This document shows, in pieces, positions 37,419-42,582 of a stretch of DNA of 64,000 bases. Within the stretch, counting starts at the first letter, position 1, and each line of letters starts with the position of its first letter. This stretch comes from Paramecium sonneborni (lineage: Eukaryota > Ciliophora > Oligohymenophorea > Peniculida > Parameciidae), in the NCBI GenBank assembly GCA_905182985.1, contig CAJJDN010000167.1:172561-236560 (forward strand), in the 5' to 3' direction. The notes beneath the pieces were generated by a model. That model was not told the origin of the DNA and did no database searches. It worked only from the letters and a program-made list of their open reading frames with translations. Made by a program: the position numbers and the translations under genes.

Positions 37419-37687
37419 TGATATATATATGTATATTTCTGATCTCAATCTCCAATTAGAAAATTCTGAATTTTCTAAATTTCTTAGAATTCTCTATTTT
37501 TATCTGTTGATACAGCAAAAGACAATATGTACAAAGTATATAATGTTTATAATTTTTTAATACATCAAATTCACAAAGGTTGTGAGTTAAATCAAAAATG
37601 AATATTATAATCACAAAATAATATTTGATTATAGGAATATTATATTAATTAAATATAAATATTATCAAAATAAAACAAAGGCTTTTA

Positions 37688-37742
37688 TTGTTCAGATTTC
37701 TTAATTCCAATTATTCTGGACTTCTTAAGACAATCGTCATAC
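37688..37742 (-). promoter_or_regulatory. SECIS element (form II) in the 3' UTR of the selenoprotein gene
   Basis: On the minus strand, 55 nt after the final stop, the sequence starts ATGA (37740-37737). The arm GATT..CTTAA then pairs with TTAAG.AATC, and the 3' quartet strand TGAA begins at 37694. Between the arms lies an unpaired AA (after CTTAAG) followed by a mini-stem TCCA/TGGA closing a short loop. Quartet, about 13-nt helix, unpaired AA and apical mini-helix are the defining parts of a form II eukaryotic SECIS. It recruits SBP2/EFSec to recode the upstream TGA. Folded by eye only. Confidence 0.8.
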
Positions 37743-37794
37743 ATGTAGCAAATGTTAGCTACTATAAAATCCTTTGTTTTTTACAAAGTATAGC

Positions 37795-38112
37795 TCAACC
37801 TCAGCTTTTACATTCAGCTCCTCCTCCCAATCCTCTAACAATCTTAGGCTTAGTTCCTTTCTGTCCAGTATCATCATCATCATCATCTTTTTGTTTTCTC
37901 TTAAAAGGCATCTCTAAATTTAATCAATATCGAAAATTACTTTCTTCTATTATGTAATTTAATTCATCCTTTGTATATTTATTGGATTCCTTCTTCATAC
38001 CAATTAGAGTACTTAAAAAGAGAATTATAGCAAAAAATAGAGTTCGAATGATGCTCCAAGTAGAATCGATGGCTTTCACCACCGTGCTTCTATTAGAAGC
38101 TAATTAAACCAT
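37795..38112 (-). CDS. SelenoK/SelenoS-like selenoprotein, 96 aa, TGA read as selenocysteine
   Basis: ATG 38112, one 27-nt intron (37914-37940), Sec codon TGA at 37803-37801, then Gly and a true TGA stop at 37797-37795. Architecture matches SelenoK/SelenoS: a short lumenal N-terminus, one transmembrane helix (TLFFAIILFLSTLI), a charged cytosolic stretch with an Asp6 run, a Gly-rich tail (KIVRGLGGGAECKS) and Sec-Gly at the very end. SelenoK ends Sec-Gly-Arg and SelenoS ends Sec-Gly. These proteins act at the ER membrane, in ER-associated degradation or protein palmitoylation. A SECIS lies 55 nt downstream. Reading TGA as an ordinary stop would lose only two residues, so the SECIS is the decisive evidence. 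It lies 38 bp downstream of the cyclin gene, same strand. Confidence 0.82.
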
Positions 38113-41472: not shown

Positions 41473-42582
41473 ATTCATAAAATTATATAATTAAATTTAA
41501 TATAATTTTTAGCATAAGGAAATTTTATATTATTCCCTATGTTCTTAGATGGGAAAAAATATGTCTTAAATGTTGTCATATATTATATTTTGAAAACCAT
41601 ATCAAAATATTTTAAAAACCTTTATTATTTTTTTACACTTTTGTTAAAATAAGCTTAATCAATAGCATAAAATTGATATAATAAGTATTTAATTAATTGG
41701 ATAGACCTATTAATTAAATTTAGTAACTCTCATTATTATACTTTTCGAGTTTGTAATAATTTTAAACTTTTTCCTTGAAGCTTTTAGAGTTATTTATTAA
41801 TAGTGTAAGTACTAAGCTAATATTTTTAAATATTCGAAATGATTAGGAATTTAATAAAAAAGGAATATTATGAACTAAAATATTAGATAATTATTCTCGC
41901 AACAATTAATTTAAAAATGAGAAATAATATATCAATTAAATTAAAAAAATTTATTGACTATATAAAATAATTAAAAAAAAATTTTTTTGTTGTAAATTTC
42001 TTTAAAAAAATTTGAATTGGTAAACTAGCTTAATTATTTAAATTTAAAAATTTTTATGTGAATTTTAATATCAACAAAAAACTCATCCTTTGATTATATT
42101 AAATAATAATGATGTTTTGTATTCTATATTAACTATTATTTGTTTTCTAGTAAGATATTGATTCATAATAATTGAGGTTTAAATTTAAATTCTTTTATTT
42201 ATATTTGAGGTCAATTTTGGCATATTTTGGTTTGAGTATTAAAGCTTTGCTTTATATTTTAAAAACTCTTACTCTTCGATTGAAATCTCTGGTTTAATGT
42301 ATTTCTAAGGTTGAATGATTAAAAAAAAAACTTTTGCCTATTATATTTTTTTTAATGATTTCTCATAATTTTTTTATTATATATATTACAAAATCTTAAT
42401 GCTTACTCGGATGAATGAAAAAACAATGGAAAAGCTACTTCTAAGAAATTGAATTATTATTATATGATAATTATTTTATTGATGTCAATTATTTTAATAA
42501 ATTAAATTAGATCATCGTTTTATTTATCTATATTGCTTATTATGTAAAAATTAAAATTTAATATTTCTTACCAAATATAGTA
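41473..42582. other. Gene-poor A+T-rich DNA
   Basis: About 1.1 kb with long A/T homopolymers. All frames are broken by TGA at short intervals. The region probably holds further unrecognisable remains of the duplicated block described next. Confidence 0.55.

Follow-up and report, generated by a model that had tools for sequence, protein, structure and literature searches.

Does a gene that ends Lys-Ser-UGA-Gly-UGA, in a ciliate whose only stop codon is UGA, stop at the first of these UGAs, or does it read that codon as selenocysteine (Sec) and stop at the second? The gene lies at 38112-37795 on the minus strand of a 64,000-nt stretch of Paramecium sonneborni DNA (the window, to which all positions refer). 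An earlier note, made from the sequence alone, had described 96 codons, one 27-nt intron, one transmembrane helix and this order of terminal codons, and the same structure was re-derived by script, the spliced gene being translated with table 6:

37941..38112, minus strand: exon 1, 172 nt, codons 1-57 and the first base of codon 58, with the transmembrane helix; matched by annotated protein P0001
37914..37940, minus strand: intron, 27 nt, GTA...TAG; absent from P0001, aligned in duplicate gene L010
37795..37913, minus strand: exon 2, 119 nt, with the acidic run, Gly-rich tail GGGAECKS, Sec codon, Gly codon and stop
37801..37803, minus strand: UGA codon 95, presumed Sec, forming C-K-S-U; seen in the DNA of two copies, compatible with fragments P0009 and P0010
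37798..37800, minus strand: GGU Gly codon between the two UGAs; identical in the duplicate, Gly in P0009 and P0010
37795..37797, minus strand: terminating UGA; seen in the DNA of both copies

Codons 95 and 97 are the only in-frame TGAs. The product, MVQLASNRST...RGLGGGAECKS-UGA-G-UGA, has its best hydrophobic window at residues 21-39, and the best window starting past residue 45 scores below zero. The layout is of the SelenoK type, with a single N-terminal membrane helix, a Gly-rich tail and a presumed Sec at position 95 of 96. We consider it highly likely that the gene encodes a SECIS-dependent selenoprotein, with Sec at the first UGA, followed by Gly and a stop at the second UGA.

Existing annotation places the end at the first UGA. 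A profile search returned ten proteins: six annotated Paramecium members, from P. sonneborni (two), P. tetraurelia, P. primaurelia, P. pentaurelia and P. octaurelia, and four fragments. All six annotated members stop at CKS, with C-K-S invariant, and P. sonneborni P0001 is identical to residues 1-94 of the window gene; in the other annotated members the next codon would be UGA, judging from the annotated end. That six of six end at the first UGA position favors an account that we consider improbable, in which the gene ends there, with a tandem UGA as back-up stop and the downstream hairpin either coincidental or used for mRNA 3'-end formation. Ciliates that use the UAR = Gln code have an excess of tandem stop codons (PMC6879139), so UGA-N-UGA on its own says little. 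Yet because the annotated members end at CKS in all five species, it is probably the annotation that truncates the protein, and the window protein has probably been cut at its Sec codon.

The fragments extend further. P0006 covers the N-terminal part only, and P0005 is the window's own sequence; P0009 and P0010 read ...GGGADCKS-W-G-W-A.... Since W stands for both of the known UGAs in P0005, W in P0009 and P0010 is taken as UGA, TGG also being possible; on this view the two fragments seem to continue through the same UGA-Gly-UGA. Among the annotated members, P. octaurelia P0008 has 53% identity overall, still ends ECKS and is possibly a fast-evolving duplicate.

Downstream of the second UGA lies a hairpin to which the earlier note had assigned the parts of a form II SECIS. 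All of these parts, the ATGA and TGAA strands included, are present by fold and spacing, the one correction being the distance from stop to ATGA, which is 54 nt and not 55:

37764..37780, minus strand: outer (lower) stem, 5' arm AAAACAAAGGATTTTAT; from the fold, in both copies; P0010 compatible in a shifted frame
37745..37762, minus strand: side hairpin GTAGC...GCTAC inside the lower junction; from the fold, in both copies
37737..37740, minus strand: SECIS quartet, 5' strand ATGA; from script and spacing rule
37725..37735, minus strand: upper stem, 5' arm GATT-G-TCTTAA; from fold and spacing rule
37721..37724, minus strand: unpaired GAAG holding the AA; from fold and spacing rule
37706..37720, minus strand: mini-stem TCCAG-AATAA-TTGGA, the form II feature; from the fold
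37695..37704, minus strand: upper stem, 3' arm TTAAGA-AATC; from fold and spacing rule
37691..37694, minus strand: SECIS quartet, 3' strand TGAA; from script and spacing rule
37672..37688, minus strand: outer stem, 3' arm ATAAAAGCCTTTGTTTT; from script and fold, in both copies

The upper stem folds as 10 bp with one bulged G. In the minimum free-energy fold the TCCAG/TTGGA mini-stem has 5 bp, a 5-nt loop and a 4+1-nt bulge, within the type II ranges used for Asgard eSECIS-like elements (PMC11227280). The outer stem and the side hairpin, both absent from the earlier note, form a three-way junction with the form II stem. The presumed Sec codon is 63 nt from the ATGA, within the 51-111 nt given in PMC4967479 for the minimal distance that has been proposed, and the outer stem starts just 23 nt past the first base of that codon. 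The 3' arm of the outer stem shares bases with an AATAAA hexamer, a point in favor of a back-up stop with a role for the structure in 3'-end formation.

Part of the element can be followed in fragment P0010, whose residues were matched wherever codons allow, in an alignment with gaps permitted. Read one base out of the window frame, P0010 is compatible with the 5' arm of the outer stem and with the first (5') half of the side hairpin; read in the window frame again, it is compatible with the 3' half of the side hairpin, the ATGA and the 5' arm of the upper stem. Likeness that persists across a frame shift is expected of an RNA element and not of a coding stretch.

How readily would such a hairpin arise by chance? 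None of 200 shuffles folds with as low an energy, whether 138 nt (z -3.05) or 115 nt (z -4.39; duplicate, z -4.21) are taken. The published SECIS spacing is NTGA, 10-13 nt, AA, 15-39 nt, GA (PMC2375036), and the hairpin fits it with d1=13, d2=28 and a 10-bp stem. When the first and last motifs of this rule are restricted to ATGA and TGA, and a minimum of 8 stem pairs is imposed as a threshold of our own choosing, 3 of 2000 dinucleotide shuffles reach the stem score of the real hairpin, which speaks against coincidence behind a back-up stop, and 126 give some weaker match. Across the tails scored, 26 to 126 per 2000 shuffles hold some hairpin of published spacing with at least 8 pairs, so the presence of a hairpin alone is modest evidence. 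When both strands of the window are scanned, the score is attained at two places, the candidate SECIS and a hairpin at 42315-42359 on the plus strand; the latter, with an equal or better score, is built of A and T runs and is probably a chance match.

A looser descriptor, used earlier, was less favorable, the score of the real hairpin being reached by 8 of 1000 shuffles, by 6 of 847 overlapping 300-nt tiles of the window (three distinct places) and, for the duplicate, by 9 of 1000 shuffles. It found five of the six candidates then in hand, missing the thioredoxin reductase gene L065 even with a smaller loop allowed; the published-spacing rule found six of six and subsequently the SelT/W-like gene described below. 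Both descriptors were written with the sequences already in view, and the stem threshold in each is author-chosen. Rfam SECIS_1 gave no match at the window hairpin, genome-wide, at the four thioredoxin reductase loci or at L010; as it is silent at these reductase controls too, its silence is not counted against the window hairpin. A second hairpin just 3' of the window Sec codon was rejected (6 bp, 26 of 200 shuffles as good, lost in the duplicate).

Further evidence comes from a second copy of the gene. A genome search with the window protein gave four matches: the window gene, a duplicate (L010) on contig C177 with 88% identity, and two places on C47 (E 0.69), taken as noise. The duplicate keeps the Gly and the downstream stop, as UGA-GGU-UGA. 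It also keeps the element, 101 of 108 positions being identical without gaps. This is about as well as the exons are kept (158/172 in exon 1; 110/119, with 3 gap columns, in exon 2), which speaks against a mere back-up stop. Identity is 20/27 in the intron, 160/188 (13 gap columns) upstream, 12/15 in the first 15 bases of the 3' UTR, 135/171 (17 gap columns) in the next 171 bases beyond the element, and 135/160 in a further stretch (49 gap columns, partly past the end of the fetched duplicate). Divergence is lower in the element than in the 171 bases that follow it (Fisher p 0.001) or in the intron (p 0.008).

Where the two copies differ within the element, the pairing is spared. All 34 consensus pairs are unchanged and all six differences (columns 5-109) fall in unpaired columns (hypergeometric p 0.0014), for a consensus derived from the same two sequences on which it was scored; with the fold of one copy alone, one of seven differences falls in a pair (p 0.005). 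Between the two copies none of the 34 pairs varies, hence no compensatory changes occur in the stems, because the copies are too similar.

The P. sonneborni genome also holds core components of a Sec pathway. One tRNA-Sec match scores 64.4 bits against a 47-bit cut-off, with anticodon UCA by ARAGORN; the other 11 matches fall short of 47 bits, and seven of these, when scanned, proved to be tRNA-Ser or tRNA-Leu. SepSecS is matched at 365.5 bits and domain III of eukaryotic EFSec at 89.6 bits (cut-off 27). Two exons give a partial SPS match (103.2 and 86.9 bits, below the curated cut-off of 125), and PSTK is matched weakly and in part (29.4 bits against 382.35). Of the machinery that the earlier note had named, tRNA-Sec, EFSec and SepSecS were thus found; SBP2 was not recognised among 31 of 34 L7Ae-domain matches (29 plus two on C11), in an exon-by-exon search that can miss SBP2. 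The L7Ae matches look like eL30, eL8, SNU13/NHP2 and eS12 proteins, by our own assignment. The SPS gene, L018 (G000:C169:6122-6965), carries GCGCKVP, with Cys at what we take to be the catalytic position.

Other selenoprotein candidates were found in the same genome. Among 22 TGR-family matches, of which 11 had their C-terminal regions inspected, four thioredoxin reductase genes end GC-UGA-(Gly or Ala)-UGA and are likely selenoprotein genes:

L065, contig C107: GC-UGA-GGU-UGA within the match
L069 and L070, contigs C13 and C10: GC-UGA-GGU-UGA past a presumed intron
L076, contig C150: GC-UGA-GCU-UGA

These genes share with the window gene a Sec codon, one further codon, a UGA stop and an ATGA-AA-TGA SECIS candidate. 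They differ in encoding large enzymes, and three of the four have a strong hairpin 3' of the Sec codon where the window copy has a weak one. When 300 nt were scanned, an ATGA-AA-TGA hairpin of published spacing was present in seven of seven cases, namely the four reductase genes, both window copies and a gene on C86. The real score is reached by 0, 0, 0 and 30 of 2000 shuffles for the reductases, the 30 belonging to a weak hairpin at L076, and by 3 of 2000 for the window gene and its duplicate alike. UGA-GGU-UGA followed by a SECIS-like hairpin in three reductase genes with Gly-Cys-UGA ends again argues against a mere back-up stop in the window gene. In L065, L069 and L070 the strong hairpin, of the CCCCUAGCC...GGCUAGGGG type, has z -4.9, -4.9 and -4.3 and begins about 9-12 nt after the Sec UGA starts, with none seen in L010 or L076; it resembles a Sec redefinition element.

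The C86 gene, L088 (G000:C86:149850-150720), is a SelT/W-like ORF of the Rdx family with UGA in CTS-UGA-SYK (CxxU). About 130 codons follow that UGA, so a tandem stop is no explanation there. Its SECIS candidate lies at a distance of 29 nt, counted from the first base of its stop codon. Another match, equal in size and score, follows at 150745 and is perhaps an assembly duplicate. None of 11 GPx-domain matches in the genome has an in-frame UGA inside the match.

The main support for the Sec reading thus comes from the duplicate, the machinery and these same-genome controls. Together with the two fragments, they give good support to the earlier note's assignment of Sec to 37803-37801 and stop to 37797-37795. 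Conservation of UGA-Gly-UGA and a downstream structure in both copies would also fit programmed readthrough, with a near-cognate tRNA decoding UGA and the hairpin acting as a generic stimulator. Such readthrough would add two residues only, and it would leave aside both the specific SECIS parts of the hairpin and the presence of tRNA-Sec, EFSec and SepSecS; it is very improbable, more so than a back-up stop.

The use of UGA as both Sec codon and sole stop, which the earlier note had presented as if unexpected, is already on record: Tetrahymena thermophila has the same genetic code, with six putative selenoproteins and SECIS elements in the 3' UTR (PMC2612030). The six are two GPx, three TrxR and SPS2, a SelenoK-like protein not being among them (PMC2612030). 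The two ciliates differ in SPS, a selenoprotein (SPS2) in Tetrahymena and a protein with Cys at the presumed catalytic site in P. sonneborni, and the two GPx selenoproteins of Tetrahymena contrast with the 11 P. sonneborni matches. A Sec tRNA has also been noted for Ichthyophthirius, Oxytricha and an uncultured ciliate, and a triple meaning of UGA for Condylostoma and Parduczia (PMC4967479). Four of five P. tetraurelia GPx are Cys forms, and other ciliates are suggested to have as few selenoproteins as Tetrahymena, or fewer (PMC7409322). Within the literature that could be covered, with subscription journals mostly outside it, no published ciliate SelenoK-like protein or Paramecium selenoprotein was found.

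Is the window protein, then, a SelenoK or a SelenoS, as its architecture had suggested? SelenoK ends in GGUGR. The Paramecium protein shares with it a length near 94-96 residues, an N-terminal transmembrane helix, a Gly-rich tail and a C-terminal Sec followed by Gly, but its tail is acidic and lysine-rich and ends CKSUG. Pfam SelK_SelG (PF10961) scores it at 14.7 bits, under the cut-off of 23.3, and matches one of four family members at all at E up to 10. In hhalign, the Paramecium family against 11 vertebrate SelenoK sequences (picked from 120 listed for a SelenoK query) gave a probability of 2.2% and E 0.022, with a weak local resemblance, SN...W...F..TL. A genome search with Pfam SelK_SelG gave no match, nor did any positive control match; a PDB sequence search gave chance-level matches only, NCBIfam on three members gave nothing relevant, and SelenoS was absent from the families listed by Pfam scans of members. 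SelK has been described as present in nearly all Sec-using eukaryotes (PMC2375036).

The likeness to SelenoS is one of architecture, namely a single-span membrane protein with a penultimate Sec and a preceding Cys able to form a selenenylsulfide, although the Paramecium protein is half as long and the Cys-to-Sec distance is 3 residues, against 14 in human SelenoS (Cys174-Sec188), where the selenenylsulfide was deduced from a disulfide in a Cys mutant (PMC3628699). Given the Pfam and hhalign scores and the CxxU end, what is supported is a resemblance in architecture, short of membership in SelenoK or SelenoS. The protein looks, and probably works, like either of them, as a single span with a reactive tail. 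More tentatively, these may be tail-type membrane selenoproteins of the Paramecium lineage, independent of or far diverged from SelenoK, with a C-terminal Cys-X-X-Sec redox motif and a three-way-junction SECIS.

For the Sec reading, the course of events would be as follows. A ribosome arrives at UGA 37803-37801, where the form II SECIS in the 3' UTR (quartet 37740-37737 / 37694-37691) would recruit EFSec with tRNA-Sec(UCA), and Sec would be inserted; Gly would be added next, and the second UGA, six bases on, would terminate. Sec insertion itself is what we infer, and so is the way in which the decoding of two neighboring UGAs differs. The resulting protein of 96 residues would span the membrane once, by prediction, and carry a charged tail that ends Cys-Lys-Ser-Sec-Gly. 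Conservation of the CKSU tail points to a membrane selenoprotein with redox activity, in which the CxxU pair would most likely form the redox center by way of a selenenylsulfide, much as has been proposed for SelenoS and its C-terminal Sec.

On the more tentative reading of a separate Paramecium family, termination at the first UGA would yield a second, Sec-less product missing only Sec-Gly, and selenium supply could thereby switch the redox motif on or off. With UGA as Sec already known in ciliates, the useful features here are the CxxU tail, the three-way-junction SECIS and the placing of Sec and stop six bases apart. The last of these, in a code where UGA is the sole stop, offers a clean test of competition between eRF1 and the Sec machinery. 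The window gene pair, the four thioredoxin reductases and the SelT/W-like gene further indicate a largely unannotated Paramecium selenoproteome, in all of which UGA sits where standard gene prediction would stop.

Two other TGR-family matches, L067 (C51) and L068 (C41), hold one TGA each inside the match, which may lie in an intron or be a Sec codon.
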